NCBI RefSeq assembly: GCF_000381925.1
Contig: NZ_KB907307.1
Location: forward strand, 2,480,001-2,544,000
DNA length: 64,000 bases
Source: Nocardia sp. BMG111209
Lineage (GTDB): Bacteria > Actinomycetota > Actinomycetes > Mycobacteriales > Mycobacteriaceae
Reading direction: 5' to 3'
Of this stretch, positions 40,436-63,303 are shown piece after piece. A model generated the notes under the pieces. It saw only the letters and a list, made by a program, of their open reading frames with translations. It searched no databases and was not told the DNA's origin. Numbering within the stretch: the stretch's first letter is position 1; every line of letters begins with the position of its first letter. Both the position numbers and the translations under genes were made by a program.

Positions 40436-41290
40436 GTGTCGGTCTCCCCGGCCTTGTCGCCGCCGGAGAAGGCGCCTCGCAACCGAGACATTCTGCGTGG
40501 CAACTTCTCGGCCACAGTGCTGTCGAGCGTGGCGACCTTGGGTCGCGCACTCCGGATGGGCGCGACCGCGGCCCGGATCGGAGTGACCGATGCGGTGCGG
40601 TGGCGGTTCCAGATTCACGAAACGCTCACGCAGGCATGGTTTCTGATCAAGGTGACAGCATTTCCCAGCCTGTTGATGGCGATCCCGTTCGGCGTGATCG
40701 TCTCCGCTCAGGTCGGCAACATCGTCTCCCAGTTGGGCGCGGATTCCATGATCGGCGCTGCCGGTGGGCTGGGGGTGATCAAACAGGGCGCTCCGATGGC
40801 GACCGCGCTCATGCTCGGCGGGGCCGGCGCAGCGGCGATCGCCGCGGACCTGGGCGCGCGCACCATCCGCGAGGAGGTCGACGCGCTGCGCGTGATGGGA
40901 ATCGATCCGGTACAACGCCTGGTCGTCCCCCGGATCACCGCGATGATGATCGTGGCGCCGCTGCTGAACATCCTGATCGTGGTCGTCGGCATCTCGGCCG
41001 GCTTCCTGGTATCCGTTGTCGCGTTGAATGTCACTCCTGGTAGTTACTGGGATTCGTTCGGGGCGTTCACTCAGACCGTCGACATCTGGGTGTCACTGGC
41101 GAAGGCGACCCTGTTCGGATTCGTCGTGGTCGTCATCGCCTGCCAGCGCGGCCTCGAGGCCCGCGGCGGCCCTCGCGGTGTCGCGGACGGGGTGAACGCG
41201 GCGGTCGTCCTGTCCATCGCCGTCGTCACGGTGCTGAACACGGTCGTCACTCAGGTGGTCACGATGTTCTTCCCGATTCGGATGGCATGA
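40436..41290 (+). CDS. yrbEA: YrbE family Mce permease subunit A
   Basis: A 284-aa MlaE-type permease with about five or six membrane helices and the family EExDALRVMGIDP cytoplasmic loop (near residue 143) that contacts the ATPase. GTG 40436 follows AAGGAGGT. It overlaps the next gene as ATGA. The ATPase (MceG/Mkl) is not in this window, as usual for these loci. Confidence 0.92.
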   Translation: MSVSPALSPPEKAPRNRDILRGNFSATVLSSVATLGRALRMGATAARIGVTDAVRWRFQIHETLTQAWFLIKVTAFPSLLMAIPFGVIVSAQVGNIVSQLGADSMIGAAGGLGVIKQGAPMATALMLGGAGAAAIAADLGARTIREEVDALRVMGIDPVQRLVVPRITAMMIVAPLLNILIVVVGISAGFLVSVVALNVTPGSYWDSFGAFTQTVDIWVSLAKATLFGFVVVVIACQRGLEARGGPRGVADGVNAAVVLSIAVVTVLNTVVTQVVTMFFPIRMA

Positions 41291-42153
41291 TGGCCGCCAC
41301 GAGTTACCGACCCCCGGGTCTGCGCCGGCCGGCTCGCTTGTTCGGCCGGTGGAGTCTGTGGCAGCCGATCGAATCCATCGGGTTCGTGCTCGGATTCGTC
41401 TGGCAGGTCGTCACGTCGGTGCCTTATACCCTGGTGCACTACCGCCGCCAGACCGTATCGATCATCAGCGATATGACCTGGGGACGTGGCTCGGTCATCG
41501 TCGGCGGCGGCGTCGTGCCGCTGATGCTGCTCATGGGCGCGGCCATGGGCGCCTCCATCGGCATCGAGGCCTACAGCGCGCTGAACCTGCTGTCCCTCGG
41601 CCAGCTCAGCGGTCTGCTGTCCGCCTTCGGCGTCACCCGCGAACTCGCACCCATTGCGGCAGGAGTCGGTTTCGCCGCACAAGCCGGCTGCCGCATGACC
41701 GCCGAAATCGGGTCCATGCGGATCTCGGAGGAGATCGACGCCCTCGAATCACTGGGGATACGGTCGGTGCCGTTCGTTGTCACCACCCGCGTCATCGCCG
41801 GAATCGTGACCGTCGCACCCGCCTTCGTGGTCGCACTGATCCTCAGCTATGTCTCCTGTGAACTGGTCGTCACCACGGTCCACCAAACGCCCTCGGGAAC
41901 CTACGATCACTACTTCGATCAATTCGTCCTCGGCAGAGATATCATCGCCGCCACGGTCAAGGTGACGGTCTTCGCCGTCGGTATCGTCCTCATCCACTGC
42001 TACCAGGGATTTTTCGTCACGGGCGGACCCGAGGGCGTGGGCACCGGCTCGGGGCGCGCAGTCCGCGCCAGCCTCGTCACCATCATCGTCCTCGACATGG
42101 TGAGCACTATCGTCCTCTGGGGTTTCCGATCACCGATCACGTTCACCGGTTGA
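41287..42153 (+). CDS. yrbEB: YrbE family Mce permease subunit B
   Basis: A 288-aa MlaE-type permease paired with the preceding one; the ATPase-contact loop is EEIDALESLGI near residue 150. Start at ATG 41287 or the adjacent ATG 41290, coupled to the previous stop. Its stop codon overlaps the convergent MerR gene by 24 bases, which leaves no room for downstream mce genes. Confidence 0.92.
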   Translation: MMAATSYRPPGLRRPARLFGRWSLWQPIESIGFVLGFVWQVVTSVPYTLVHYRRQTVSIISDMTWGRGSVIVGGGVVPLMLLMGAAMGASIGIEAYSALNLLSLGQLSGLLSAFGVTRELAPIAAGVGFAAQAGCRMTAEIGSMRISEEIDALESLGIRSVPFVVTTRVIAGIVTVAPAFVVALILSYVSCELVVTTVHQTPSGTYDHYFDQFVLGRDIIAATVKVTVFAVGIVLIHCYQGFFVTGGPEGVGTGSGRAVRASLVTIIVLDMVSTIVLWGFRSPITFTG

Positions 42154-49362: not shown

Positions 49363-50346
49363 CAGAATAGGTCCAGGTCTGCACGCTTTCCGATGCTAGG
49401 GTCCGTGGGCCGTGCAGAATACGCAGACACTGCGAATTGAATTAGGGCACGCGATCCCCGCTCGGCCTGGTGACCTGGTCCATATTGTGGATTCGTCTTC
49501 TCTTCCAGCTACGCGACCCGGCTCCCCGGTCGGTAGGTGCTTGTTGACTACCAGCGGCGGTTTGGCAGGTCGGTGACATCCGCCGACGAGCGGCTGATAA
49601 TTCGTTGTGTGAGCGCGGATTTCATCAGCCCGGCCGTTGCCGTGGTCGGCGTTGTGGGCACTCTCAGCGCGACTGTCGCCGACGCAAGCGACGGCCCTTC
49701 GGAGCTCCTGCTTGATCCCGGCGACCCTCATCGACGATCAGAGCGACAGCTCGCTCCCGGAACTGCGGTGAATACATCGTCAGCACGGGCGAAGATCCTT
49801 CCATCAAACGGACAGGGATCTCACAACGCCGCTGGTCGAGTGAATCCCGCTGCGCCCGAACGGCGTCCGCCCATGCCACTGGGCGGCCGTTTGCGGCGCG
49901 TCTCGACGATTCTGTCGGGTCCGGGAAATTGCGAGGTCGGCCATCACCGCACCGCTGCGTCATGGAACCGTCCATAACGCACCGGCCCTGATCCGGTGCC
50001 GCGACTGCTGTCGTCCGAGCCGAACGCTCAGGGCGACAGCTGTTTTCGCGGTAGGGAAACGCCGCACGCCGAATCTCGGTCGACGCGAGCAGTTCGGCGG
50101 CAGAAACGCTCTGGGCGGCACCGCCGGGCGAGAACCATTCAGCGGCAACAACTGTCGAACAAGATCACCGAGCAGTATCGACCGTCGTCACGATGAATGC
50201 TACGAAAACAGTAGCCGCCCAACGAGACACGAGGGCATGCGACCTCTGCCGGTCTGCCGCCGGATCCGGTAGCCTTCAGGCCTGCGTCGGCGGCAGATCC
50301 TCCTGTCGAATGAACGCGGGCGAATGCCGTGCCTGAGGGGGTCTTG
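49363..50346. other. Gene-poor region after tRNA-Val with mobile-element debris
   Basis: About 980 bases without an intact gene. It contains an IS3-type transposase relic (49735-49777, minus strand) and a perfect 7-bp hairpin (GCACCGG near 49980). It probably represents the remains of an integrated element between the tRNA and the gene at 50347. Confidence 0.5.
49735..49777 (-). pseudogene. IS3-family transposase OrfA fragment
   Basis: ATG 49777 on the minus strand begins MYSPQFRERAVALIVDEG, the typical N-terminus of IS3-family OrfA, and after about 18 codons loses all similarity. No OrfB or terminal repeat is visible. Confidence 0.5.
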
Positions 50347-53136
50347 GTGAATTCTTCGGTGGCGTTGATCGGTGAGGGGAAATCGCGCCGACTGCCGATT
50401 TTTCCCGGAGTCGACAAAGTGGTGGAGCTCGTCGACAAGTTGTGTCGGCGGCCGAGATTCGGTGATGATCCATCCGACAGCACGCTGGGCTGGCGTGGCC
50501 GGCGGGCTCAGCGCGGGCTGCCGATGATATGCCTGGTCCGGCCGGCACAACACGCCGAACTGTTGGGCGGCCTGGCCTGGCGGCTGACCGAGGCGAACCC
50601 CCGCCGGGTTCCGCACTGCCAGTTGCGACTGCACGGAGACGTTTCCGCTGTGGGTGAGGTGCAGCTGATCCGGGAGATTCTCGCCCATGCCGCGCAGGCG
50701 CTGGGCAGCAGCCGTAACGCGACCGGCGGGCGCATCCGGTTCCGTCGGTTCGGGCTGCTGGACTGGCTGATGAGTCTGGAACTGGACGAACCGGACGGCG
50801 CGCGGCGCAGCACCCGGCTGCGGGCCGGATTGCGCGAGCGGGACATCACCCAACGCTTCGACGACGCCATCACGAGTGTCGACCAGGCCGTCCCGGTCTC
50901 CGGCTGGCTGCAGTGGGCGAAGCGGCTGATCCGGCTGATCCCGCCACTGCTGTTCCTGCTCCGGGTGACCGGCCGGGCTCCGCTGATCGGCCGGCAGTAC
51001 CGGTGGTTCCTGCGGCAGCCGCACCTCACGCCGGAGGTGCCCGGTGGTTTTCTCGGGTTCGCCGAGCGGCTCACCGGCGACCCGGATGGGTGGCGGCAGG
51101 AGAACGCCGTTCAGATGACCCGCCTGCTGACCAACGCGTTCCTGGAAGACCTGCGGCAGGCATGGCGGATGCCCTGGCGACTCGGCGGACCGCGGCGCAC
51201 GACCTACACGGTCCTGTTGCTGGAAGACCTCACCGCCGACAATGCGGGTGCCGCCCTCCTGCGAGTCATCAACGACGTGCGCAACGAGGTCGGGCTGTTC
51301 GATCCGCTGTTGGTGATCGCCGCCGGTGAGCACACACCGCCGGACAGCGAGCATCGCTCGATCCCGTCGGCGGAACACGCCTCCGAGGCCTACAAGGCCT
51401 GGCTGAAGTCGTTGCCGGAAGCTCGCAGAGCCCGTACCGACACGGCGTGGTACCTGCCCATCAGGACACCCGACGTGGCCGAGGGCGACGACGGCAAGGG
51501 CGGCCGCGACGATCACACCCGGCATTTGGTCGCCGGGCTGGATCGATACAAGGTCGACGGCCCACCATGGTGGGGCCGGCGAATCGTGCCGATCGGCATG
51601 GCGGTCGTGCTGCTGGCCGGGCTCACGACCGGTTACGCGACATGGAGTGAGCGGCACTGCGGGGGCGGTTGGCGGCCACCGGCGGCCGGCTCGACGTTGA
51701 CCTGGACCGATGGCCAGTGCATCGGGGTCACCGACGGCCACTACACGTTCGATCCGGCGCTCGCGGACGTCACTCGGACAATCCTGGACCAGAACCGACA
51801 GGCCCAGCGAGTGCACAGAGCGAACCCGAACCGGCCGTACATCACGCTGGCCGACCTGCAGGCGTTGACCACACTGCCCAGCGGCACCGACGGTCTCGCC
51901 GCCGAACGCGAGTCACTGGAGGGCGTGGCGGTCGCACAGGCCCGACCATTGCACGACCCCTCGCTGCCGCTGATCCGCGTGCTGATCGGCAACGGTGGCA
52001 CGAATATGTCCCGCGGGACCACGGTGGCCGCGCAGCTACGCTCCCTGCCGGAAACCGACGCCCCGCTGATCGGTGTGATCGGTCTCGATCACAGCACGCA
52101 GGGCGTCGGCGACACGGTCCGCGCACTGGCCACCGATGGCCTGCCCACGATCGGCGCCAGCCTGTCCGAGGACCAGCTCAGCGATTCCAACCCGCTGTAC
52201 TACCAGGTATCTCCGCAGAACCGGCGCGAAGCCGCGGTCGCCGCGGCGTTCGCCACCACGTTGCGCGCCGCGGGCACCATCAATGACGAGGTCGACGTGT
52301 TCACCCCCGATGACCCGAACGACACCTACGCGCAGAATCTCACCGCCGACGTGCTGACCAGTTTCCGAAACAGCGGTTTCCGGCCCTCGACAACGCAATT
52401 CGCGCCCAGTACCACCGCGCCGGCGGCGATCAGACCCGGAATCCTGTATCCGACCCAGAACGGCAAGAACACCTGCGGATTTCCCGGGCTGATCTACTAT
52501 GCCGGCGACGGCCTTCCGGATTTCAACGCCTTCCTCGACGGCATCAAACACTGCCCGTCACCGCCGGCGGTGCTCGCCGACGACGACGTGACCAGGTTCG
52601 TAGCGGACACCGCGGCCCGGGAACAGAACAAGTCGGTGCCGTTCTGGTACACCTCGTTCGCCACGGCACCGACGTCTCAACCACAGGGCCCGGCCAGCGA
52701 CTTCTACAACGCCCGCGATATCGGCCTCTACGCACTGTTCCCGCACGACAAGGGCGACGACGAGGACCCCTCCCTGGACGGGCACGCGGCGCTGACCTAC
52801 GACGCGGCGCAGGTACTGATCACCGCCGTCCAACATCTGTGGTTGGGCAACGTGGCCATCCCCATCACCCCGGGAGGTGTGTGGCGGCAAATCAGCAGCA
52901 TTCGCAGTACCTCGGCGCAGACCGCCTCGCACCCGAACCCGAACAACAACACCGTGCAAGGCGTCACCGGCCTGATCGATTTCAGCGCGACCGGCAGCAG
53001 CCTGCACTACCCGGCCAATAAGCAGGTGACCATCCTGCGGGTGCAGCAGGGAGAGGTGAAGGACCCTCCAGCGTTCTTCTGTGGCCTGCCGGACGACGCC
53101 CGACAGGGCCGGGGCTGCCCTCTCGACCAGGGTTAG
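50347..53136 (+). CDS. Membrane-anchored fusion: cytosolic NTPase-like domain plus type I periplasmic-binding (ABC substrate-binding) domain
   Basis: A 929-aa protein. Residues 1-400 are a cytosolic domain starting around a P-loop-position strand (LPMICLVRPAQHAELLGG) whose Walker A glycine/lysine pattern is missing. One membrane helix follows (about residues 410-432). Residues 440-929 are an extracytoplasmic branched-chain-amino-acid-binding-protein-like domain (PLIGVIGLDHSTQGVGDTV, SNPLYYQVSPQNRREA). GTG 50347 follows GAGGGG at six bases; GTG 50329 is an in-frame alternative. No ABC permease or ATPase is nearby, so it is more likely a sensor or receptor than a transporter subunit. Its ligand and output are unknown. 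Confidence 0.8.
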   Translation: MNSSVALIGEGKSRRLPIFPGVDKVVELVDKLCRRPRFGDDPSDSTLGWRGRRAQRGLPMICLVRPAQHAELLGGLAWRLTEANPRRVPHCQLRLHGDVSAVGEVQLIREILAHAAQALGSSRNATGGRIRFRRFGLLDWLMSLELDEPDGARRSTRLRAGLRERDITQRFDDAITSVDQAVPVSGWLQWAKRLIRLIPPLLFLLRVTGRAPLIGRQYRWFLRQPHLTPEVPGGFLGFAERLTGDPDGWRQENAVQMTRLLTNAFLEDLRQAWRMPWRLGGPRRTTYTVLLLEDLTADNAGAALLRVINDVRNEVGLFDPLLVIAAGEHTPPDSEHRSIPSAEHASEAYKAWLKSLPEARRARTDTAWYLPIRTPDVAEGDDGKGGRDDHTRHLVAGLDRYKVDGPPWWGRRIVPIGMAVVLLAGLTTGYATWSERHCGGGWRPPAAGSTLTWTDGQCIGVTDGHYTFDPALADVTRTILDQNRQAQRVHRANPNRPYITLADLQALTTLPSGTDGLAAERESLEGVAVAQARPLHDPSLPLIRVLIGNGGTNMSRGTTVAAQLRSLPETDAPLIGVIGLDHSTQGVGDTVRALATDGLPTIGASLSEDQLSDSNPLYYQVSPQNRREAAVAAAFATTLRAAGTINDEVDVFTPDDPNDTYAQNLTADVLTSFRNSGFRPSTTQFAPSTTAPAAIRPGILYPTQNGKNTCGFPGLIYYAGDGLPDFNAFLDGIKHCPSPPAVLADDDVTRFVADTAAREQNKSVPFWYTSFATAPTSQPQGPASDFYNARDIGLYALFPHDKGDDEDPSLDGHAALTYDAAQVLITAVQHLWLGNVAIPITPGGVWRQISSIRSTSAQTASHPNPNNNTVQGVTGLIDFSATGSSLHYPANKQVTILRVQQGEVKDPPAFFCGLPDDARQGRGCPLDQG

Positions 53137-53251: not shown

Positions 53252-53851
53252 TCACCGAGACCGCACACTGTCCAATGTCCGCTCCACATAATCCGCGAGC
53301 ACACCGTCGCGACTGGCCCAGTCGTTCATCGTCGTGAGCAGGGCGTACAGGCCCAGCAGGAAGAACACCGCGCTGTTCATCGGATTCACCTGGCTGCCGA
53401 CCTCGCCGCGGTCCTGTGCGGCGGCGATCTCGCGGGCGATCAGGACGATGACGGCGTGATTCTCGCTGTCGTCGACCGGTGGCCGGGTCTGGGAGAAGTG
53501 CAGGGCCAGCAGGTCTCGGAACAGGTCCTTCCCGAGGCGGCGCTCCAGGCCCAGCACCAGCCGTACCGTCTCCGTCAGCAGCGCACCCAGGTCCCGGTTG
53601 TTGCCGGCGAAACGGTTGAGCAGGCCCGCGATTCGATCCTCTTCGCGGTTCTCCACCTCGAACAGCACATGTTCCTTGGTGGGAAAGTGGAAGTAGAAGG
53701 TGCCGTGGGCGACTCCGGCGGCAGCGACGATCGCGCTCACGTCCGCGGCGGCCATACCGGCGCGCTTGAACTCGGCCATCGCGGCACCGAGCAGGCGTTC
53801 GCGGGTCTGCATGCGTTTGACCTCACGCACCGACAGACCGTCCGCCACCAT
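53252..53851 (-). CDS. TetR family transcriptional regulator
   Basis: A 199-aa TetR regulator: HTH at about residues 28-47 (DVSAIVAAAGVAHGTFYFHF), ligand domain of mostly helices. ATG 53851 has GGGGAAGG upstream; GTG 53905 would add 18 residues without a ribosome site. It lies downstream of the NorQ/NorD-like operon in the same direction, 103 bases after the oxidoreductase, and is the natural candidate to bind the TGACTCAAGTCA boxes at 59203 and 59368. Confidence 0.88.
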   Translation of the reverse strand: MVADGLSVREVKRMQTRERLLGAAMAEFKRAGMAAADVSAIVAAAGVAHGTFYFHFPTKEHVLFEVENREEDRIAGLLNRFAGNNRDLGALLTETVRLVLGLERRLGKDLFRDLLALHFSQTRPPVDDSENHAVIVLIAREIAAAQDRGEVGSQVNPMNSAVFFLLGLYALLTTMNDWASRDGVLADYVERTLDSVRSR

Positions 53852-53954
53852 CGCCGCCTTCCCCTCTCCGGGCAGACCTCGCCTGGTCCCCAGCTCGTGG
53901 TTCACACCGTATCGCCCGGACGCCGGGAGGATGACCGCCGGGGCCCGGCAGGTG

Positions 53955-55031
53955 TCACAACGGTCCGCCCGGCAGTGACAGCACTCCGCGGCCCGCGATG
54001 GTGGGCAGGTCGAGGAAGGTGCGAATCCCCGGCGCGGCGGCGCACACCGGTGCGATGGCGTGCACGGCGTGCATGGCGGTGCCCAGGCAGCCCTGGTCGG
54101 TGTCGTCCTCGCCGTGGACGGCGATGCGGGATTCGAGGACCATCGACGGCAGTCCTTCCACCGCCACCTTCCAGCCGCGCCCGGTCGGCCAGTGCGGCGC
54201 CTGGTCGGCGCCCAGCCGGGTGATGTGTTCGATCGTCAGGGCGCGGCGGCCACCGATGACTGCGGTGTAGGAGAAGCGTTGCGCCGCAACGGTACCGGCT
54301 TCGATACGGCCGGCCGGGATGTCGATCGGCGTATCGGTGGTGACGACCTCCCGCTGCCAGATGTAGTCATCGATCGTGGCGCCGAGTCCGTCCGCGAGCA
54401 GCATCAGGGGTGCCGCGAACGACAGGCTGCCGACCGCCGGTTCGTCCATCGGTACCCGTTCGCCGGGTTTCTTGCCGAAGCCCATGATGTCGAACAGCAC
54501 GAAGGGGACGTTGTAGGTGGTGTAGTCCATCAACTCCTGGACCAGCAACGAGTCGATCCGGCGGAACAGGCCCGACATCGTCAGCGGCAGCACCTCCGCG
54601 GCCCAGCCCGGCTGGATACCGGTGGCGTGGAACGAACTTCGACCGGCCGCGCAGGCGGTCTCCAACCGGCGGACCACGTCCTCCCCGGCGCTGCGCGGAT
54701 AGATCCAGGCGGTGACGGCAGTGGAGACGACGTTCTTGCCGGACGCCAGCAGCGCGCACACATCGTCGAGCGCGGCCGGCGGATCCCATTCCCCTTGCGG
54801 GTTGTACAGCACGCAATCCGCTTCCAGGGCAAGGATTTCGGCGCGGTCGCTCGTGGCGATCACACCGATGTCACCGATGCCGCAGATCTCGCCGACATCG
54901 CGGCCCGCTTTGGCGTCGCTGTAGACCAGCGCGCCGACGAGTTCGAGGCCGGGGTGTTCGTGGACCGCGGCGACGGCGTGGCGGCCGACATTTCCGGTGG
55001 CCCACTGGATGATTCGCAGCGGTCGCGTCAC
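53955..55031 (-). CDS. NAD(P)-dependent oxidoreductase, DAP dehydrogenase-like (copy 2)
   Basis: A 358-aa protein, the same length as and nearly identical to the gene at 4707-5783 ([20 protein letters not shown] and long blocks thereafter unchanged). GTG 55031 overlaps the stop of the upstream membrane protein gene (GTGA), so it is translationally coupled. It is the only soluble redox enzyme of the operon, and probably reduces or oxidises the product of the membrane component. Confidence 0.85.
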
Positions 55032-55441
55032 TTCGGTGCTCCGTGCTGCGCGGCTTCGCGCGCGTTGTGGATGCGGACCAGTTCGCGGAACCCCAGCCGA
55101 TGGTAGGCGGGCGTCGGCTGCACGCCCCATTGATCCTTCGCCTTGTCCTTGGCCTGCGCGCCCTCGGGTGGTCCGAACATCGGGTAGGGGACCTTGCATT
55201 CCTGGGTGTCGTCGGAATACTGGACCTTACGCAGTTCGCTGCAGATCTGGCTGAGGCTCAGGGTCGGGTAGCCGTAGTAGACCGCCATGAACGGCAGCGT
55301 GAACGCGCCCTCGACGACCAGGGCGACCAGGCAGACGAGCGTCACGCGCTGGATCCATTTGTGCATGTTCGCGTAGTAGGGCGTGGTCCCGGCCGGGAGG
55401 TCCTGGGCCGCAGGGTCTTTCGTGGCAGGTGAGGTGGTCAC
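55028..55441 (-). CDS. Unknown single-pass membrane protein, operon with NorQ/NorD-like pair
   Basis: A 137-aa protein: polar N-terminus, one membrane helix at about residues 31-54 ([20 protein letters not shown]), then a Tyr-rich segment ([14 protein letters not shown]) and a soluble C-terminus with a Cys pair ([20 protein letters not shown]) that could form a disulfide outside the membrane. GTG 55441 is preceded by GGGAG. The helix segment [17 protein letters not shown] resembles the last helix region of AveC-like membrane proteins as I recall them; weak. It follows the 242-aa membrane protein by 16 bases, so the two may be halves of one complex. Confidence 0.8.
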
Positions 55442-55457
55442 GGCAGTGCGCTCCCGT

Positions 55458-56186
55458 TCAGTCGGTGAAGATTTCGCGGTTGACCGTGTGCAGGTACGGG
55501 ATCGCGAGGAAGGGGCTGATGTAGAAGATGTCGTAGAGCCACCAGCCGACGACCGGGAAGATCGTGCCGTGGTAGCGGACATCGGCGTACATGGTCATGT
55601 TGAACACGTAGGCGCACCAGATCACCACACCCATCCAGCAGGTGATGATCATCCATTGCTGACCCCAGCGTTTCATCTGGAGGAAGCCGATCGCGGCGGC
55701 GACCCGCATCGAGAACACGGTGAGGATCAGTCCGTACACATACGATTTCTCGCCGGGCCCGGCGGCTCCGCCGACCCACAGTTCGTTGTAGTGCCAGAAG
55801 TAGCCGCCGTCGAACATGTTTCCCCAGCCGACCAGCAGCACCCGGCTGAGCAGCGTGTGGTTGGCGATCATGTCCATCGCCCAGCCGAGGCTGTTGAGGC
55901 AGCCGTCGATGAGCACCAGATAACCGAGCAGGGTGACGATCATCGGCCGCACCGACAGCCCGTCGCGCAGGGCACGGCGCTGTAACAGGACGCCGCGCAG
56001 GAAGATCGGCAGCCCGATGATGCCCGGCGCCCACATGCCCATCAGAGCGGCGCCGGCGATCATCCACTTGTCGGCACGGCGTTGCGCACGCCGCGACAGG
56101 TCCTCGTGCTCGTCCAGGCCCGACGAGGGTCGAGCGGGGACGGCCGGCTGTTTTCCGGTGCGGCGGTGGACGAGTGGGAGATTCAC
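55458..56186 (-). CDS. Unknown polytopic membrane protein (about six helices), operon with NorQ/NorD-like pair
   Basis: A 242-aa integral membrane protein with about six helices (for example [55 protein letters not shown]). Conserved-looking polar groups in the membrane-side loops, such as [15 protein letters not shown] and ADVRYHGT, are possible metal or haem ligands. It lacks the histidine pattern of NorB/heme-copper oxidases and known CuMMO motifs. GTG 56186 overlaps the stop of the 42-aa gene (GTGA); GTG 56195 is an alternative. It is the best candidate for the enzyme activated by the NorQ/NorD-like pair. Confidence 0.8.
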
Positions 56187-56311
56187 AGGTCCCACCAGCC
56201 CCGGGCGAAGGACATGTACAGCTGAATGCCGAACATCGCCAGCAGAAAGCCGTAGATGACCAGTTGCAGGACGATGAGGGCCCTCTTCCTGCCCTGTTCC
56301 TGTCGATCCAT
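56183..56311 (-). CDS. 42-aa membrane peptide
   Basis: A short protein (MDRQEQGRKRALIVL, hydrophobic helix to about residue 34, then ARGWWDL). It has a ribosome site (GAAAGGA) 7 bases upstream of ATG 56311, starts 20 bases after the ATPase stop, and couples to the next gene by GTGA overlap. Small single-helix subunits are common in membrane enzyme complexes; this one is probably a structural partner of the 242-aa protein. Confidence 0.8.
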   Translation of the reverse strand: MDRQEQGRKRALIVLQLVIYGFLLAMFGIQLYMSFARGWWDL

Positions 56312-56331
56312 GTCGAATTCCTTTCTCGCGC

Positions 56332-57159
56332 TCAGGATGTGGCTGCCACGTCCGCGGGCAGCAGACTGGCGGCGGCGATTTCGCGCAGACCGTCGGTGAT
56401 CGCCCCGTCGGAACTCAACGGAGCCAGGATGCACGCTTCGGCGGCCTCCAATTCGCTTGCACCGCAGGCGATCAGCTGCGCCGCCGTCACGAGCACCCGG
56501 GTGGAGGGCGGCTCGAAGTGGAAGGCCCGGTCGGCGGAACGGATCGCGGTGGCGCACCCGACCAGTCGGCGGGCCGTCGGCAGCGCGACACCGGTCTCCG
56601 CCACGACCACCGCGGCCTCCGCATCGGGCGGCAGGTAGGTCATCGGGATCGTGACGAACCGTTGCCGGAACGAGGGTTTCAGTTCCTTCAGCGAGCTGCG
56701 ATAGGCCGGGTTGTAGGAGCACACCAGCATGAAAGTGTCCGGGGCCGTGACGGTTTCGGCGGCGCGATCCAGGAACAGAGTGCGGCGATGGTCGGTCAGC
56801 GAGTGCAACACCGCCAGCGAATCGTGGCGGGCCTCGACCACCTCGTCGAGATAGCAGATCGCACCGGCCTTCACCGCACGGGTCAGCGGGCCGTCGGTCC
56901 AGACCACATCACCGCCGGTCACCAGGAACCGGCCGACGAGATCGGAACTGGTCAGATCGTCGTGACAGCTGACGGTGACCAGGGGCCGTTGCAGCACTGC
57001 GGCCATATGCTCGACGAACCGCGTCTTCCCGCACCCGGTGGGGCCGGTGAGCATGACCGGCACACCCCGGCCGAAAGCCCGCTCGAACAACCGCTTTTCG
57101 TTGCCACTGGCGTGGTAGCCGGTGCTGGGCATGATTCCCCTGTCGTGCTCGGTGGTCAT
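56332..57159 (-). CDS. MoxR/NorQ/CbbQ-type AAA+ ATPase
   Basis: A 275-aa AAA+ protein of the MoxR clade: Walker A GPTGCGKT (residues 39-46), Walker B ICYLDEV (about 101-107), sensor CSYNPAY, arginine-finger region KPSFRQRFV and C-terminal lid. NorQ-type ATPases work with a VWA partner to insert metal or remodel a target enzyme. ATG 57159 overlaps the VWA stop (ATGA), so the pair is made together. Confidence 0.9.
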   Translation of the reverse strand: MTTEHDRGIMPSTGYHASGNEKRLFERAFGRGVPVMLTGPTGCGKTRFVEHMAAVLQRPLVTVSCHDDLTSSDLVGRFLVTGGDVVWTDGPLTRAVKAGAICYLDEVVEARHDSLAVLHSLTDHRRTLFLDRAAETVTAPDTFMLVCSYNPAYRSSLKELKPSFRQRFVTIPMTYLPPDAEAAVVVAETGVALPTARRLVGCATAIRSADRAFHFEPPSTRVLVTAAQLIACGASELEAAEACILAPLSSDGAITDGLREIAAASLLPADVAATS

Positions 57160-58679
57160 GCGGCGACCAGTTCGCGGTGGACGTGGGCGAGCACCCGCGG
57201 CAGCTCCTCCACACGCCGGATGCGTTGGGACCGAAGGGGTCCGAACACCTCCGGCAGTGGATCGACGCGGGCCGGGCCGACGCCGATGTAGTAGATCGAG
57301 ACGCCCGCGTCGGCGGCCTCCTCGACGGCGTGCGCGGTATCGGCCCAGGCGTAACGGCCCTCGTAACCCTCGTCGGAGATCAGCCCGTCGCCGATGACCA
57401 GCAGCAACCGCCGCTGCGACGGCTGGTCCAGCAACCGGGCCGTCAGGTGACGCAGTGGCGCGCCGAGCCGGGTGTATCCCCCGGTGACCAGTCCCTGTGC
57501 GCTCGGCGGGACGAACCGCCGGTCGGTGAAATCCTTCAGGCAGCGGACCTCGACCCGGTGCCGGGTGTTGCCGGTGAACACGAAGATGCCGTGCCGTTCC
57601 CGCGCTCGTGTCATGGCGCTCGACAAGGCGTCCGCGCACGCCAGCTCGAGGCGGAAGATGGCCCCGCCGTGCACCCCCAACGACGAACTGCCGTCCAGCA
57701 GAACGGCCGTCGTGACATCACGGCCCGCGGGCATCAGGTCGCGGAACACCCGCGGCTGGGCCGCCGCACCGGTCATCACATCGATGTAGTGACCGACATA
57801 CCGGTCGACGTCGAGGTCGGAACCGTCCTCGAGCCGGCCGGTCATCGCGCGGTGGGTGTGCTGCTCGAACCAGCGGCGCAGCTCGGCCGCGACCGCGGTG
57901 CGCTCGGGGATGTAACCGGTGTGCGCGCGCTCCACGACGGCGACATGGTCACGCAGGAAACGGTCGGTCCACGCGTTCCACTCCGGGTAGGGGATGCCGG
58001 GCCGATGCTCCGGCGTGACATCGAAGTCGTTGTCGTGCGGTCGATTCGGCGGCGGCAGGTTCGGATTGCGGACCCCGCCGTCCCCGCCGACCGGGACCGA
58101 GTAGGGCCGCGGCCGATGCCGCGACCGGGTGGTCCACGGCATGCGGCCGTAGGCGCGGCGCAACCTCTCGACCGCACCCACCGGCGTCGTGTAGGCCGGT
58201 GGCAGCGTGCCGAGCAGCGGGTGCAGCGGTAGCGGCCGACCGGTACCGGCCAGGGCGATCGCCCGGTCGAGCATTGCCGGGGCATCCGCATCGGCGGCCG
58301 CGGGTTCCAGATCCGGTAGCGCCCTGCGGAATTCGCCGAGCAGGCCGGGCCATCGCGACGCGATCCAGCCCAGTGCGACACCGGCTTCGACATACACCAG
58401 GGCCCGCAGCTCGCGATCCGAGAGCGCACCGAGCCGGTAGCCGGCGAGCCGCTCCTTCGAGGGTGAACATTGCAGCGCCACAGCGCATGTCACCATCCTG
58501 CGGGTCCAGTCCGGCGGATAGGGAACGTGGACGACGGTCAGCGTCGCATCGAGACCGAACCGCCGCCGCTGCCCCGTGACCAATCGTGCTCCCGCACGCC
58601 GCGTGTCGCCGAGCGCGACCGCGGTGACGGCGCAGCTGCGCTCGAAGGCCATCGCGTCCGCGGTTGCGAGTTCAGTCAT
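57156..58679 (-). CDS. NorD-like VWA-domain protein
   Basis: A 507-aa protein whose C-terminal VWA domain has a complete MIDAS (DGSSS near residue 328, Thr in GGYTRLG, Asp in VIGDGLISD) and the NorD-typical YEGRY-x-D-T loop. The N-terminal 320 residues are helical and family-typical. It normally couples the NorQ ATPase to its target, as in nitric oxide reductase activation. ATG 58679. No NorB or NorC gene is in the window, so the target here is probably one of the downstream membrane proteins. Confidence 0.88.
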   Translation of the reverse strand: MTELATADAMAFERSCAVTAVALGDTRRAGARLVTGQRRRFGLDATLTVVHVPYPPDWTRRMVTCAVALQCSPSKERLAGYRLGALSDRELRALVYVEAGVALGWIASRWPGLLGEFRRALPDLEPAAADADAPAMLDRAIALAGTGRPLPLHPLLGTLPPAYTTPVGAVERLRRAYGRMPWTTRSRHRPRPYSVPVGGDGGVRNPNLPPPNRPHDNDFDVTPEHRPGIPYPEWNAWTDRFLRDHVAVVERAHTGYIPERTAVAAELRRWFEQHTHRAMTGRLEDGSDLDVDRYVGHYIDVMTGAAAQPRVFRDLMPAGRDVTTAVLLDGSSSLGVHGGAIFRLELACADALSSAMTRARERHGIFVFTGNTRHRVEVRCLKDFTDRRFVPPSAQGLVTGGYTRLGAPLRHLTARLLDQPSQRRLLLVIGDGLISDEGYEGRYAWADTAHAVEEAADAGVSIYYIGVGPARVDPLPEVFGPLRSQRIRRVEELPRVLAHVHRELVAA

Positions 58680-58721
58680 GCCGGGACACCGCCGGACGCG
58701 CCGTCACCGCAACCGCCGAGC

Positions 58722-58826
58722 TCAGAAGGTCCCCAGCCTGCTGAACATCCAGTACCAGAACGCGATGATCAGGACCGTCCCGCCGTACGCGGCCAGATAA
58801 CGAACGCCTTCCCAGAGCCATAACAT
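58722..58826 (-). CDS. 34-aa membrane peptide, first gene of the operon
   Basis: A 34-aa peptide rich in aromatic residues (MLWLWEGVRYLAAYGG, then TVLIIAFWYWMF), with one predicted helix. GAGGAGG seven bases upstream of ATG 58826 is one of the strongest ribosome sites in the window. It lies 42 bases ahead of the NorD-like gene. Probably a small subunit of the membrane complex. Confidence 0.75.
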   Translation of the reverse strand: MLWLWEGVRYLAAYGGTVLIIAFWYWMFSRLGTF

Positions 58827-59186: not shown

Positions 59187-59216
59187 TTTGTAGAACAGAT
59201 CACTGACTCAAGTCAA
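59187..59216 (-). promoter_or_regulatory. Leftward promoter with operator over the -35 box
   Basis: On the minus strand TTGACT (59211-59216) could be the -35, and TACAAA (59187-59192) the -10 with an 18-base spacer. The box TGACTCAAGTCA covers the -35, as expected for a repressor site. It would serve the 34-aa to oxidoreductase operon. Confidence 0.5.
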
Positions 59217-59367: not shown

Positions 59368-59396
59368 CTGACTCAAGTCAGCAACTGTGATAGCTT
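59368..59396 (+). promoter_or_regulatory. Rightward promoter with operator over the -35 box
   Basis: The palindrome CTGACTCAAGTCAG (59368-59381) overlaps a -35 (CTGACT) that is 17 bases from TAGCTT (59391-59396). It would serve the SDR at 59513. The core 12 bases are identical to the leftward site. Confidence 0.5.
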
Positions 59397-59512
59397 CAGC
59401 GAACACTCTCCGGCAGCGCGCAAGTCCACTGCGGCAACGCGACCGCGGCGCTCACCGGATCGACACGGCCGCTCGCGACATGCCTCGATCGGCCACCCAA
59501 CAGGAGATCACC

Positions 59513-60334
59513 ATGACCGACCGGCTCGCCGGCAAAGTGGCGTTCATTACCGGCGCGGCCCGCGGTCAAGGCCGCGCACACGCCCTCCGGATGGCCGGGG
59601 AGGGCGCCGACATCCTCGCCGTGGACCTCGCCGCTCCCCTGCCACCGGCGGTGCCCTACGACTCCGCCACCCCCGACGACCTCGACGAGACAGCGAAACT
59701 GGTCGAGGCGACAGGCAGGCGTATCCGCACTGCCGTAGCGGACATTCGCGATCCCGACGCCCTGCGCACGGCCGTCGACGACACGGTCGCCGACTGGGGA
59801 CGACTCGACATCATCGTCGCCAACGCGGGTATCTGCATCCCGGAAACCTGGGATGCCATCACCCCAGGGTCATTCCGCGACGTCATGGACATCAACGTCA
59901 CGGGAACCTGGAACACCGTCGTCGCGGGCGCTCAGCACATCATCGACGCCGGCCGCGGCGGCTCGATCATCCTGATCAGCTCCGCCGCGGGAATGAAGAT
60001 GCAGCCGTTCATGGTTCACTACACCGCGAGCAAGCACGCGATCACCGGCATGGCACGCGCGCTGGCCGCCGAACTCGGCAGACACAACATCCGGGTCAAC
60101 AGCGTCCACCCCGGACCTGTCAACACCCCGATGGGCACCACCGACATGGCCGCCGCGATAGCGCACGCGATAGCGACCTATCCGCAACTGGCGAACATGA
60201 ACACACCCTTCCTGTCCGGATGGGTGTCCGAGCCCGAAGACGTCGCCGACGCGGTCTGCTGGCTGGCCTCCGACGAATCACGCTACGTCACCGCCGCACA
60301 GATCCCCGTCGACCAGGGCATCACCCAATACTGA
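59513..60334 (+). CDS. Mycofactocin-coupled SDR family oxidoreductase
   Basis: A 273-aa short-chain dehydrogenase with TGAARGQG near residues 13-20 and the mycofactocin-type insertion (about residues 38-55); catalytic YTASK near 163. ATG 59513 follows AGGAGA. It is divergent from the NorQ/NorD-like operon and shares its operator box, so the two are likely co-regulated, and the SDR may act on the same substrate. Confidence 0.9.
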   Translation: MTDRLAGKVAFITGAARGQGRAHALRMAGEGADILAVDLAAPLPPAVPYDSATPDDLDETAKLVEATGRRIRTAVADIRDPDALRTAVDDTVADWGRLDIIVANAGICIPETWDAITPGSFRDVMDINVTGTWNTVVAGAQHIIDAGRGGSIILISSAAGMKMQPFMVHYTASKHAITGMARALAAELGRHNIRVNSVHPGPVNTPMGTTDMAAAIAHAIATYPQLANMNTPFLSGWVSEPEDVADAVCWLASDESRYVTAAQIPVDQGITQY

Positions 60335-60403: not shown

Positions 60404-60497
60404 TTTTGTTGAGGCGGGTCCTCGACGAAGGGCCCACCACAGGCACCCGTGCCGACAAATCAGCGCGTCACCTGCGGCGATGAAGGAGGTTCAGATT

Positions 60498-60650
60498 GTG
60501 GACGATCACCCCTCGTCGACCACATCGGAGCTCGTGGACGCACCACTGACCGGTGGCCCTCCCCCCGAGGAACAGGTGAGCACCACCTACATCTGGTTGC
60601 TGATCTTCGCGCTGTTCGGCAGTTTCGCGGCGGTCTGGTTCTATCCGTGA
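60498..60650 (+). pseudogene. N-terminal fragment of an MFS transporter, cut by IS21
   Basis: GTG 60498, with AGGAGG upstream, encodes 50 residues: a polar leader, then a first membrane helix (TTYIWLLIFALFGSF). The frame ends in a TGA that is supplied by the left end of the IS element. The fragment at 63757 carries the next recognisable MFS segment, so this is one gene split by insertion. Read as a separate small membrane protein it would have no partner. Confidence 0.65.
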
Positions 60651-60727
60651 ATTACGACACCGTTGATCGGTGAATCTCGACACCACTCTCGGCGTGGAAG
60701 GTGTTGGTATCCGCGAATTTTGACACC
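60648..60727 (+). repeat. Left terminal repeats of IS21 element
   Basis: Three copies of a 14-base motif: TGAATTACGACACC (60648), TGAATCTCGACACC (60671) and CGAATTTTGACACC (60714). IS21 elements carry such multiple repeats as transposase-binding sites. Confidence 0.75.
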
Positions 60728-60793
60728 ACCGGACGGGTTGCGGTGGCAAGATCCTCCTGCTATCAATCTGCATCGGCCCGTAGGAGTGGATCT

Positions 60794-62434
60794 GTGCCGC
60801 CGAACCAATCCAAGGCGCAGTTGTACGCGGCGATCCGCCGGGACTCGAGAGCGGGCATGTCGGGCCGGGATCTACAGGCCAAGTACAACGTCGGCTACCG
60901 CACGGTCAACGCTGCTCTGACGTCTGCGTTCCCGGAGGCGCGCAAGGAGTATCCGGCGCGGGCGTCGAAGCTGGACCCGTTCAAGCCGTTGATCGATGAG
61001 ATGCTGCGGGCGGATCTGGACGCGCCGCGCAAGCAGCGGCACACGATCACGCGGATCTATGCGCGGCTGATCGACGAGCACGGTATGGAAGATGTGTCGT
61101 ATCAGCGGGTCCGCGACTATGTCGAGGAGCGTAAGCCGCAGATCAGGGTCGAGGCCGGCCGGGAACCGCCGCAGGTGTTCATCCCGCAGACCCACCGCCC
61201 CGGTGAGGAAGCCGAGGTCGATTTCGGTGAGGTGACCGTCGAGCTGCGCGGCGAGCCGATCGTGCTCTACCTGTTCTCGCTGCGGATGTCGTACTCGGGC
61301 CGGTCGGTGCAGCGGGTGTTCGCCTCGGGCGGGCAGGAAGCGTTCCTGGAGGGGCACGTGCACGCGTTCACGGTGCTGGGCGGGGTGCCCCACGGGAAGA
61401 TCCGCTACGACAATTTGAAGGCCGCGGTCGCGAAGGTGCTCGGGTTGAGCAGGGCCAGAACCGAATCGCAGCGCTGGACCACCTTCCGCAGCCATTACGG
61501 CATCGACGACCCGTTCTACTGCATCCCGGGCATCGAGGGCGCGCACGAGAAGGGTGGTGTCGAGGGCCAGATCGGGTACTACCGGCGCAACCACTTCGTC
61601 CCCGTCCCGAAGGTCGAGTCCCTCGAGGAACTCAACACGCTGGTCGGGCAATGGGATAGCCAGGATCTGCGGCGGCGGATCGGTGCGCGGGCGCGCACGA
61701 TCGGGGAGCATTTCGCGCTGGAGGCACCGACGCTGAAACGGCTGCCCGAGGAGGAATTCGAGACCGGGTCCTGGCTGTCCACGCGGGTGGACAGGTATTC
61801 GATGGTGGCGGCGCGGACCAACAAATACAGTGTCCCGATCCGGTTCATCGGCCGCCCGGTCCGGATCCTGTTACACGCCTCCTGGCTGGTCGTCTACGAC
61901 GGCCGCACCGAGATCGCCCGCCACGAACGCCTGATCGGCAAGGCGCTGACCCGTGTCGAACTCGATCACTACCTCGAAGCGCTGGTCCGTAAGCCCGGCG
62001 CGATGGCCGGCGCCACCGCCCTCGAGCAAGCCCGCCAGAGCGGGAAGTTCACCAAGAGCCACGACGCGTGGTGGGCGGCGGTCCGCAAAGCCCACGGCGA
62101 GCGTGACGGCACCCGCGCGATCATCGAAGTGCTTCTGCTGCACCGCAGCATGCCCCACGACCAGGTCGTCGCCGGGCTGGACGCCGCGCTGCGCGCGGGA
62201 GCGCTGACCGCGGACGCGGTCGCGCTCGAGGCCCGCAAGGCCGCCGAAGCCTCTCCACGGCTGGCCAGCGTGGTCGACCTCGACGAACCCGGCCCGGATC
62301 CGGATCCGGTTCCCTCGCTGACCGCCCGCCGGCTGGCGCAACTGCCACCGGACACCCGGCCCCTGCCGTCGGTCGCCATCTACGACCAGCTGCTCCGCAT
62401 CACCAAACCGAGAACCGCAGAAGGGAATTCCTGA
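60794..62434 (+). CDS. istA: IS21 family transposase IstA
   Basis: A 546-aa DDE transposase: N-terminal HTH (SGRDLQAKYNVGYRTVNAAL), catalytic residues in AEVDFGE (about residue 142), RYDNLK (about 206) and GAHEKGGVEGQIGY (about 253), then the C-terminal beta region. GTG 60794 follows GGAG. It overlaps istB (TGATG). All catalytic residues are present, so the element may be active. Confidence 0.95.
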   Translation: MPPNQSKAQLYAAIRRDSRAGMSGRDLQAKYNVGYRTVNAALTSAFPEARKEYPARASKLDPFKPLIDEMLRADLDAPRKQRHTITRIYARLIDEHGMEDVSYQRVRDYVEERKPQIRVEAGREPPQVFIPQTHRPGEEAEVDFGEVTVELRGEPIVLYLFSLRMSYSGRSVQRVFASGGQEAFLEGHVHAFTVLGGVPHGKIRYDNLKAAVAKVLGLSRARTESQRWTTFRSHYGIDDPFYCIPGIEGAHEKGGVEGQIGYYRRNHFVPVPKVESLEELNTLVGQWDSQDLRRRIGARARTIGEHFALEAPTLKRLPEEEFETGSWLSTRVDRYSMVAARTNKYSVPIRFIGRPVRILLHASWLVVYDGRTEIARHERLIGKALTRVELDHYLEALVRKPGAMAGATALEQARQSGKFTKSHDAWWAAVRKAHGERDGTRAIIEVLLLHRSMPHDQVVAGLDAALRAGALTADAVALEARKAAEASPRLASVVDLDEPGPDPDPVPSLTARRLAQLPPDTRPLPSVAIYDQLLRITKPRTAEGNS

Positions 62435-63303
62435 TGATCAGCCCGCTCCCGCGCCGTCACGGCATGACCGATCAGGCCGCCGACGCCGCCGTCGACCAGG
62501 CATGCCGGATACTGCGGCTGCCGTCGATCCGCTCCCAGTTCAACGACATCGTCGAAACCGCGACCCGTGACCAGATGACCTACCGGGCATTCCTGGCCGA
62601 GTTGCTGCTGGCCGAATGCGACGACCGGGGCCGCCGCCGCTCCGAACGCCGCATCCGCGCAGCCGGGTTCCCGCGCGATAAATCGTTGCGGGCGTTCGAC
62701 TTCGACGCCAACCCGAACATCGACCCCGCGGTGATCAACACCCTCGCCAACTGCGACTGGGTGCGCAAGGGCACCCCGCTTTGCCTGATCGGCGACTCCG
62801 GCACCGGCAAGAGCCATCTGCTGATCGCGCTGGGCACCGAAGCCGCGATGCGCGGCTACCGCGTGAAATACATCCTGGCAACGAAACTGGTGAACGAGCT
62901 GGTCGAAGCTGCGGACGAGAAGGTGCTGGCCAAGACGATCGCCCGCTACGGGCGAGTCGATCTGCTCTGCATCGATGAACTGGGATATATGGAGCTCGAC
63001 AAGCGTGGCGCCGAGCTGTTGTTCCAGGTCTTGACCGAGCGCGAAGAAAAGAATTCTGTCGCGATCGCCTCGAACGAGGCGTTCTCCGGCTGGTCGAACA
63101 CGTTTCCCGAACCGCGGCTCTGCGCCGCGATCGTCGACCGCCTCACCTTCGGCGGGCAGATCATCGAAACCGGCACCGACAGTTACCGTCTCACCCGCAC
63201 GGCCCTCGGCAGCGCCGCCGGACCCGCCACTGCGGCAGCGCCCCCGCCGCAGCAACCCGTATTCACCGACGCGCAGCAACAGGCCCTGGAAATAGTGCCC
63301 TGA
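62434..63303 (+). CDS. istB: IS21 family helper ATPase IstB
   Basis: A 289-aa AAA+ ATPase that delivers target DNA to IstA: Walker A GDSGTGKS (about residues 120-127), Walker B LLCIDELGYME, sensor IASNEAF. Start ATG 62434 coupled to istA. The C-terminus has a short Ala/Pro tail. Confidence 0.95.
   Translation: MISPLPRRHGMTDQAADAAVDQACRILRLPSIRSQFNDIVETATRDQMTYRAFLAELLLAECDDRGRRRSERRIRAAGFPRDKSLRAFDFDANPNIDPAVINTLANCDWVRKGTPLCLIGDSGTGKSHLLIALGTEAAMRGYRVKYILATKLVNELVEAADEKVLAKTIARYGRVDLLCIDELGYMELDKRGAELLFQVLTEREEKNSVAIASNEAFSGWSNTFPEPRLCAAIVDRLTFGGQIIETGTDSYRLTRTALGSAAGPATAAAPPPQQPVFTDAQQQALEIVP

Follow-up and report, generated by a model that had tools for sequence, protein, structure and literature searches.

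A dedicated lineage of the chaperone pair NorQ/NorD is tied to the putative P242 membrane complex, and this association is well supported. It was found in Nocardia sp. BMG111209 in a window, i.e. the whole stretch of DNA analysed here (64,000 nucleotides). The membrane complex encoded beside NorQ/NorD is probably an enzyme that is switched on by the pair. A more specific proposal, which we consider evenly poised, is that the P242 complex is a membrane redox enzyme with four subunits which acts in lipid catabolism, most likely as a hydroxylase, and owes its maturation to the dedicated NorQD lineage. To our knowledge, NorQ/NorD and CbbQ/CbbO are chaperone pairs with one client each. New are a separate NorQ/NorD lineage tied to a membrane complex and another lineage tied to AveC-type proteins. 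No paper on the P242 module was found in the open-licence literature among the matches listed. The operon comprises the following genes:

58722..58826, minus strand: pep34, single-TM micro-peptide (34 aa) ending with GTF, GAGGAGG upstream of the ORF
57156..58679, minus strand: VWA, NorD-like protein (507 aa), VWA domain C-terminal, MIDAS D-G-S-S-S
56332..57159, minus strand: AAA+, NorQ-like MoxR ATPase (275 aa), gene overlaps the VWA gene by 4 bp
56183..56311, minus strand: pep42, single-TM micro-peptide (42 aa), one hydrophobic helix
55458..56186, minus strand: P242, polytopic membrane protein (242 aa) with about six TM helices, putative catalytic subunit
55028..55441, minus strand: P137, single-TM subunit (137 aa), C-terminal extramembrane part with two cysteines
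53955..55031, minus strand: ORD, DapB_N/DAP_DH_C oxidoreductase (358 aa; Pfam), accessory

All six core genes from pep34 to P137 and ORD were confirmed at these positions. The core genes are tightly packed, and the intergenic distances from pep34 to ORD are +42, -4, +20, -4, +16 and -4 bases. The initial annotation had described the AAA+ and VWA genes as complete and coupled; they overlap by 4 bp. The two micro-peptides and the one-helix protein that it listed are pep34, pep42 and P137. Relatives of P242 are encoded on 318 contig stretches; the best 80 of these were inspected for the entire module, so that this sample leans to close relatives. The gene-neighbourhood search suggested earlier revealed clear co-conservation: The complete six-gene set is present in 79 of these best 80 of 318 loci, and the remaining locus is truncated by a contig end. 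A module kept whole to this extent is not due to chance. P137 and pep42 were found in 80/80 and pep34 in 79/80 of the best 80 loci. In a phylum sample of 396 genomes, NorQ/NorD adjoin P242 in all nine P242-bearing genomes. Hosts of the module are Mycobacterium, Mycolicibacterium, Nocardia, Aldersonia and one genome from another family of the phylum. A second P242 gene occurs in 75 of the best 80 of 318 loci and is absent from Nocardia sp. BMG111209 itself. On a M. branderi plasmid, a P242 relative is encoded without NorQ/D within the 24.7 kb read. The original picture of a NorQ/NorD pair lacking its known client and co-conserved with unfamiliar membrane proteins stands, and the soluble oxidoreductase drops out as a part of the complex (see below).

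By their sequences, the AAA+ and VWA proteins are true NorQ/NorD relatives. In a Pfam scan that took in part of the window's genes, AAA_5 (127.3 bits, 5.7e-37) and CbbQ_C (72.6 bits, 3.1e-20) exceeded the cut-off in the AAA+ protein. It is matched by NorQ from the PDB (9qh4) at E 2e-75 and, more weakly, by CbbQ-type PDB chains at 1e-64 to 1e-66. Walker A (GPTGCGKT) and Walker B (YLDEVVE) patterns are found in 79/80 and 77/80 relatives, respectively, among the best 80 of 318. A figure legend in PMC13036017 prints a GRXLL/I motif for NorQD contacts. In our reading, this motif sits at the H2i region; the window protein has GRFLV, most relatives have GRFMV, and GR.L[LVI] occurs in 2 of the best 80 of 318. 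The VWA protein is matched by NorD from the PDB (9qhd_G) at E 1e-31 solely over residues 220-507, and it is about 130 aa shorter than NorD proteins of 638-646 aa. Its MIDAS comprises DGSSS, YTRLG and GDG; a DxSxS-type MIDAS and YTRLGA are present in 79/79 VWA relatives taken. The string DG[SD]DLD, which we read as the probable NorD finger region, is found in the window protein and in 51/79 relatives, is aligned in 9qhd NorD and is absent from Azospirillum NorD.

The Azospirillum operon is annotated with cytochrome c, cbb3-type oxidase subunit I, CbbQ/NirQ/NorQ/GpvN and VWA, and we take it to be norCBQD. Its NorQ-type protein is 53.9% identical to the AAA+ protein. The P242 operon resembles norCBQD of cNOR in having a NorQ-type AAA+, a NorD-type VWA protein with MIDAS and a membrane client encoded beside the pair. 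It differs in the client, which is P242/P137 and not NorB/NorC (no Pfam match, no significant BLAST match to Azospirillum NorB), in the length of NorD, in gene order, in the micro-peptides and in TetR with its palindrome. According to an excerpt of PMC13036017, nor clusters also have the small membrane proteins norE and norF. With CbbQ/CbbO, the operon shares the MoxR/VWA pair and the alignment of the AAA+ protein to CbbQ-type chains; however, the pair is encoded here with membrane proteins as partners, and the NorQ alignment is the stronger one. RuBisCO, the client of CbbQO, is a soluble enzyme whose activation involves no metal insertion; GvpN acts on gas vesicles, which are not an enzyme. 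Therefore, the chaperone alone implies neither metal nor catalysis. RavA-ViaA is a MoxR/VWA pair, too. RavA belongs to a MoxR subfamily other than NorQ, and we know of no client gene beside the RavA-ViaA pair. An excerpt of PMC10585395 links this pair to a membrane respiratory enzyme.

The absence of a NorB substrate from the operon, claimed previously, was borne out: No NorB-like gene was found in it, and the two PF00115 matches of the genome (E about 1e-161) are both located on contig C2, whereas its three NorQ-type genes are all on contig C1. P242 was rejected as a NorB/haem-copper oxidase, as it does not match PF00115 and the best BLAST hit, between P242 relatives and the NorB of locus L197, has E 0.16. 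It was also rejected as AlkB or CuMMO since no Pfam match to such families was obtained; these membrane oxygenases carry His-rich metal motifs. No Pfam/NCBIfam match over the curated cut-off was found for P242, P137, pep34 or pep42. Sub-threshold matches were p47_phox_C (E 0.088) and a bacteriocin immunity model (E 0.17) for P242 and DUF3149 (E 0.033) for pep34. In the relative from another family, W-x-W and GTF of pep34 are preserved. By eye, the TM core of P137 resembles in an alignment a 44-aa peptide (L086) and a section of an 82-aa protein (L090).

The six-helix topology suggested for P242 was recovered by AF2, albeit in a weak model (mean pLDDT 65.8): Helices span residues 24-49, 55-74, 82-107, 144-169, 175-204 and 209-235, and the middle stretch 116-143 has a pLDDT below 50. 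Thus, the structure prediction recommended at the outset yielded the helices without a fold match. Foldseek returned nothing at E up to 0.001 for two such models (pLDDT 62.7 and 65.8) against PDB or for one against BFVD, and the single match of the P242 profile to PDB sequences (E 0.92) was rejected. Over the 14 most diverse rows, D94, N98, D105, D126, N134, E146, K147, R161 and K172 are invariant. Among them, D94, N98 and R161 fall inside predicted TM helices, D94 and N98 in helix 3. No His is invariant in these 14 rows, although H110 nearly is, and no recognised metal motif was found in P242. An acid-only site may be envisaged. Since H27, H110, H132 and H233 do not vary among 122 close rows, in contrast to the 14 diverse ones, a His site of the main branch is also conceivable.

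How closely the chaperone follows its client is apparent from related genomes. In 81 family-level genomes, 22 strong NorQ-type matches were found, nine beside P242 and 13 beside an AveC_like gene (PF17198), a link that the initial annotation had missed. They were selected from 24 CbbQ_C matches and all have E < 1e-18; the weak ones in G315 and G297 were left aside. In a NorQ tree from which identical rows had been removed beforehand, a 100/100 branch separates the P242-linked NorQs from the AveC-linked and the NorB-linked ones. Because they split off at this branch, the chaperone lineage follows the client. A NorQ-type gene of G121 that is flanked by ferredoxins and was labelled 'other' falls into the AveC set. 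Of 30 CbbQ_C matches outside the family, 13 were read: One in G121 is located beside P242, one in G055 beside AveC and one in G121 between two ferredoxins, and for ten no client could be named. A broken match in G150 was left aside.

AveC_like genes adjoin NorQ/NorD in 13 of 26 family-level matches, and the other 13 are without NorQ. On plasmids of M. branderi and Paraburkholderia, no NorQ/NorD was seen among the annotated genes around AveC_like; the M. branderi copy adjoins a P450. The literature search on AveC with MoxR found unrelated papers only. P242 and AveC_like are both polytopic, are both encoded beside NorQ/NorD and both have invariant acids and D-x3-N in the third predicted TM helix. 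Hence, P242 might be a remote AveC_like fold that NorQD activates, i.e. a non-redox lyase, hydratase or cyclase like AveC of Streptomyces avermitilis. According to an excerpt of PMC13303154, AveC is bifunctional and catalyses spiroketalisation and dehydration. We consider this reading unlikely. P242 does not match PF17198 at E up to 1 and, in contrast to AveC_like, has three single-TM partners and a separate NorQ group. HHalign with standard gaps gave probabilities of 4.1-7.1%. Very loose gaps raised this to 54.5%, but with the motif in a different register; two runs put D-x3-N in register and two others differ. The AveC alignment behind the invariant acids had 17 rows; L115 is not beside NorQ, and both G121 AveC proteins were left out. 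The P242-AveC score was reached or exceeded by 2 of 60 block shuffles, by 28/100 and 6/100 segment permutations and by 106 of 150 controls in global mode, whereas reversed controls scored below it. With scores not clear of controls and shifting registers, homology is not claimed from the profile comparison. Moreover, AveC_like clusters in two distant genomes both contain a ferredoxin-reductase-like gene and one of them a ferredoxin, which hints at redox chemistry for the AveC client type and speaks against a non-redox fold.

The operon shares a control region with a divergently transcribed dehydrogenase gene, which, like the palindrome there, had escaped the initial annotation:

53252..53905, minus strand: TetR-family regulator (TetR_N match)
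59204..59215, no strand: operator-like palindrome TGACTTGAGTCA, first copy (pattern match)
59369..59380, no strand: operator-like palindrome TGACTTGAGTCA, second copy (pattern match)
59507..60334, plus strand: mycofactocin-coupled SDR (TIGR03971, 343 bits, cut-off 300), divergent from the operon across both palindromes

The palindrome has two matches in the window, a number reached in 0/100 shuffles. TGACTNNAGTCA occurs twice between the operon and the mycofactocin-type dehydrogenase gene. In 79 of the best 80 of 318 loci, it precedes TetR, P242 or pep34; a TetR family of similar kind is encoded in 72 of them. Across the own genome, four palindrome sites, two of them at the operon, compare with three in the backwards control, so that no wider regulon is claimed. 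A gene for the mycofactocin rSAM enzyme is also present in the genome (TIGR03962, 656 bits against a cut-off of 265).

ORD overlaps P137 by four bases. It was rejected as a core member, as its ortholog lies directly downstream in just 2 of the best 80 of 318 loci; 31 of these have a less similar ORD-type gene and 47 none. A second copy in the window (4707-5783) is 89% identical. The overlap and the soluble client of CbbQO would fit a NorQ/NorD pair that serves a soluble neighbour, ORD or SDR, with the membrane genes as an unrelated passenger. This is very improbable and already disfavoured by the counts, as P242, P137 and pep42 are kept in 80/80 of the same best 80 loci and P242 occurs in another family, too. 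In a narrow motif scan of the best 80 of 318 P242 loci, no ferredoxin reductase was detected nearby. One ferredoxin was convincing (L072), and two-iron-type motif matches occurred at L059, L060, L071 and L081. A ferredoxin motif match in the window was judged by eye to be due to chance.

For maturation by the dedicated NorQD lineage, the following mechanism is favoured. P242, P137, pep34 and pep42 would assemble into an integral-membrane enzyme complex. A NorQ hexamer with the VWA finger of NorD held in its pore would dock on the cytoplasmic face of this complex, and ATP-driven strain exerted by NorQ could open a buried site for metal uptake. This site would mainly consist of conserved Asp, Asn and Glu side chains, namely D94 and N98 (both in helix 3), D105, D126, N134 and E146. 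The mature complex may oxidise, and most likely hydroxylate, a lipophilic catabolic substrate and hand the alcohol to the mycofactocin-coupled SDR. A TetR regulator acting via TGACTNNAGTCA might switch the unit on. In favour of this proposal are the six-gene module with NorQ/NorD beside P242, the alignment of AAA+ and VWA to solved NorQ/NorD, the separate NorQ branch, the ferredoxin-reductase-like genes in two AveC_like clusters, the invariant D94, N98 and R161 in predicted TM helices and the palindromes shared with the SDR. A P450, another MFT-coupled SDR, an acyl-CoA dehydrogenase, a thiolase and mce-type genes are also encoded in the window and speak for it, too. Against it stand the lack of a family or fold match and of a recognised metal motif in P242, the negative scan for ferredoxin reductases in the best 80 of 318 loci, the M. 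branderi P242 relative without NorQ/D in the 24.7 kb read and the AveC_like genes without NorQ.

Small TM subunits, the lack of a recognised cofactor motif and mce-type transport genes at other places in the window would also suit a lipid transporter, channel or sensor whose assembly or gating is aided by NorQD. GvpN, to which the AAA+ protein has a sub-threshold NCBIfam match (75 bits), also acts on a non-enzyme. Such a function of P242/P137 is nevertheless quite doubtful: The best described clients are enzymes, RuBisCO in the case of CbbQO. The same applies to cNOR in an excerpt of PMC13036017. Furthermore, the operon has a control region in common with a dehydrogenase, and invariant D94, N98 and R161 are located within predicted TM helices. 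If a redox enzyme is matured by NorQD, it would extend the lipid catabolism of actinobacteria by a membrane enzyme class and offer a small model client for studies of NorQD action. A prediction that can be tested is that P242-type membrane proteins need metal or remodelling; NorQD-linked AveC-type proteins may need it, too. Only tentatively, P242 and NorQD-linked AveC_like could be regarded as two branches of one unrecognised class of membrane-embedded oxidoreductases whose intramembrane metal site would be rich in acids and amides and be put in place by NorQ/NorD-type chaperones. Together with mycofactocin dehydrogenases, both might serve Mycobacteriaceae to functionalise lipophilic carbon sources; the multi-subunit branch with micro-peptide subunits would be that of P242.

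The operon is read from ORFs as follows:

58826 to 53955, minus strand: seven genes in the order pep34, VWA, AAA+, pep42, P242, P137, ORD

P242 and P137 are membrane proteins of 242 and 137 aa, pep34 and pep42 single-TM micro-peptides, and ORD is an oxidoreductase. From pep34 to ORD, the intergenic spacings are +42, -4, +20, -4, +16 and -4 bases, and a TetR gene follows 49 bases past ORD. The AAA+ protein carries AAA_5 and CbbQ_C domains. Among solved structures, NorQ proteins align best (9qh4, E 2e-75), with CbbQ-type chains behind (1e-66, 1e-64). The VWA protein aligns with NorD over residues 220-507 (E 1e-31) and has a MIDAS signature. The NorQ/NorD-like pair proposed in the initial annotation is thereby confirmed; judged by these alignments, it is a real NorQ/NorD-type chaperone pair of an already known kind. 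The N-terminal part of the VWA protein falls short of NorD's in length and gives no alignment. All 79 VWA relatives taken contain DxSxS-type and YTRLGA strings. DG[SD]DLD, found in 51 of the 79 and absent from Azospirillum NorD, is taken by us as the putative finger region. The Azospirillum operon, reached via the window AAA+ protein (53.9% identity), is annotated as cytochrome c, cbb3-type oxidase subunit I, CbbQ/NirQ/NorQ and VWA, and we read it as norCBQD.

The membrane proteins had been called unfamiliar, and this holds: searches of Pfam and NCBIfam with P242, P137, pep34 and pep42 gave no match over cut-off. Two AlphaFold2 models of P242, built from 65 and 122 sequences, reached a mean pLDDT of only 62.7 and 65.8, and fold searches with these weak models yielded no match at E up to 0.001. 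The better model (65.8) places helices at 24-49, 55-74, 82-107, 144-169, 175-204 and 209-235; P137, pep42 and pep34 have one hydrophobic helix apiece. Across 14 diverse P242 rows (identity down to 32%), the polar residues S31, D39, R80, T85, D94, N98, D105, D126, Y133, N134, E146, K147, R161, K172, Y193, R204 and Y222 are invariant. No His is invariant in these rows, His110 being nearly so; across 122 close rows, H27, H110, H132 and H233 are invariant.

The source genome (9.14 Mb, five contigs) encodes a single P242 and three NorQ-type genes in total. The closest named P242 relatives are from Nocardia (N. aurantia, 90%; Nocardia sp. alder85J, 93% over residues 24-242). Scanning GTDB genome contigs for P242 relatives yielded 318 stretches, of which the best 80 were retained. 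In 79 of these best 80 of 318 loci, the six genes from pep34 to P137 are complete; the only exception, L039, starts within the VWA gene. A second P242 gene occurs in 75 of the best 80 of 318, upstream of pep34 and frequently behind a TetR gene; it is lacking in four Nocardia loci and the window, and L039 is cut. Evenly drawn samples of the phylum contained 6 P242-bearing genomes among 296, and a search with alignment A2 gave 9 among 396, counting the source genome. NorQ and NorD adjoin P242 in all nine. The expected co-occurrence in other gene neighbourhoods was thus borne out. One of the nine, G121, belongs to a different family; it encodes P242 (37-39%), AAA+ (55%), a peptide similar to pep34, another of 44 aa like the P137 core, and a protein of 86 aa with a pep42-like helix. 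An exception is the P242 of a M. branderi plasmid (32%; L090, 11747-12708): it is adjoined by an 82-aa pep34-P137-like protein, and NorQ/NorD were not found within the 24.7 kb read. ORD, described earlier as an operon member, is indeed the last of seven closely spaced genes in the window, but an ortholog lies directly downstream in just 2 of the best 80 of 318 loci; 31 have an ORD-type gene of lower similarity and 47 have none. It was therefore rejected as a core member and is outside the conserved core.

Beside each of the other two NorQ-type genes of the source genome are a VWA gene and a gene for a membrane protein of the AveC_like family (PF17198):

C1:2423500-2427200 (L098) and C1:2728700-2733900 (L099), source genome: NorQ/NorD pairs beside AveC_like

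In the L099-type cluster, a substrate-binding-type protein lies between AAA+ and AveC, likewise in L022, L149/L162, L152, L154, L160 and L161. Among 81 family genomes, 12 contain PF17198 matches (26 in total) and 12 contain CbbQ_C matches (24 in total). Two of the 24 CbbQ_C matches are weak; of the 22 with E < 1e-18, 13 adjoin AveC_like and 9 adjoin P242. AveC proteins often occur without a pair, since 13 of the 26 genes, two of them in the source genome, lack an adjoining CbbQ_C match and no pair is among the annotated genes near AveC_like on M. branderi and Paraburkholderia plasmids. Both unit types lie within 20 kb in three loci (L003, L022, L023). The AveC cluster of the sampled genome G055 has the gene order ferredoxin, ferredoxin reductase (Pyr_redox_2, Reductase_C), AveC, VWA, hydrolase, AAA+. 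In G121, AveC and VWA follow a ferredoxin-reductase-like gene; AAA+ was not found beside them. These redox genes are circumstantial evidence that AveC proteins of such clusters may use electrons. Distant phylum members contain:

L175 6399-13024, L179 5488-9592, L173 6191-7493: AveC_like clusters with ferredoxin/ferredoxin-reductase genes and a NorQ gene flanked by ferredoxin motifs

In 17 AveC_like proteins (16 adjoining NorQ), Q136, D137, P138, E178, D229 and E233 are invariant, N141 is present in 16, and no His is invariant. P242 has no AveC_like match in Pfam. With standard gaps, HHalign of P242 against AveC gave a probability of 4.1-7.1%, against 54.5% when gaps were very loose; controls scored as high in 2/60, 28/100 and 6/100 cases and, in global mode, in 106/150, and reversed controls scored lower. 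The D-x3-N motifs were in register in two runs and out of register in two others, and the D-x3-N that both have in TM3 serves only as a lead.

In a midpoint-rooted tree of 42 NorQ-type proteins, P242-linked NorQs, including the distant G121 protein, fall on one side of a 100/100 branch. AveC-linked NorQs form a separate group (95/91), which also takes in a row labelled 'other' and is distinct from Azospirillum NorQ and actinobacterial NorQs without recognised client. Thus, chaperone lineage follows client type; exact positions in the tree are unsure because of the long branch of G121 and the midpoint rooting. A pairing of NorQ/NorD with a P242-type membrane complex or AveC proteins was not found among the papers that full-text searches of the open PMC library listed. 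As the pair is of known kind and its pairing not found there, we regard this as a variant of the MoxR/VWA system of chaperone and client, in which the client family, the P242 complex, is uncharacterised.

Two copies of the operator-like palindrome TGACTTGAGTCA occur in the window, and both lie in the interval separating pep34 from a divergent SDR gene (0/100 shuffles with two). Its pattern form TGACTNNAGTCA occurs 135 times in the best 80 of 318 loci (1.57 Mb) against 0.2 expected from mononucleotide shuffling, which reflects conservation and not 80 independent events, the loci being related. Of the 135 sites, 133, spread over 79/80 loci, lie at most 450 bases upstream of P242 (69), TetR (55) or pep34 (9). 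The SDR exceeds the mycofactocin (MFT)-coupled cut-off (TIGR03971, 343 vs 300 bits), and the source genome encodes the mycofactocin radical-SAM enzyme. An SDR family with a representative likewise over the TIGR03971 cut-off (338 bits) lies at most 10 kb away in 27 of the best 80 of 318 loci, and P450 families lie downstream in 40, 18 and 17 of the 80.

For cNOR, PMC13036017 describes a NorQ pore occupied by the NorD finger and a proposed opening of the client for iron through rotation driven by ATP. For the steps beyond chaperone identity we propose, on the anatomy of cNOR maturation, that the pair would open P242 for metal uptake. Candidate residues in helix 3 are D94 and N98, separated by one turn, followed by D105. 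The P242 complex might be a hydroxylase passing an alcohol to the MFT-coupled SDR, which would fit because operon and SDR have a common control region.

Elsewhere, the window encodes P450, another MFT-coupled SDR (7911-8783), acyl-CoA dehydrogenase, thiolase, amidohydrolases and MlaE/MlaD (mce-type) proteins:

4707-5783, plus strand: ORD copy, 89% identical, in a second cluster with P450 (1274-2629), acyl-CoA dehydrogenase and MFT-coupled SDR
33857-42153: mce-type lipid-uptake genes; MlaD domain (33857-34813) and MlaE permease (40436-41290) by Pfam, intervening genes by eye
50329-53136, plus strand: 935-aa ORF with hydrophobic segment, C-terminal part like a substrate-binding protein by eye
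60480-60650, plus strand: small single-TM ORF (56 aa, 0 Pfam families) between SDR and IS-like genes
60701-63303, plus strand: adjoining ORFs of 577 and 289 aa just past the divergent SDR

The 577-aa and 289-aa ORFs presumably resemble an IS21-type istA/istB pair. The second cluster also contains an MFS-type transporter, called by eye only.
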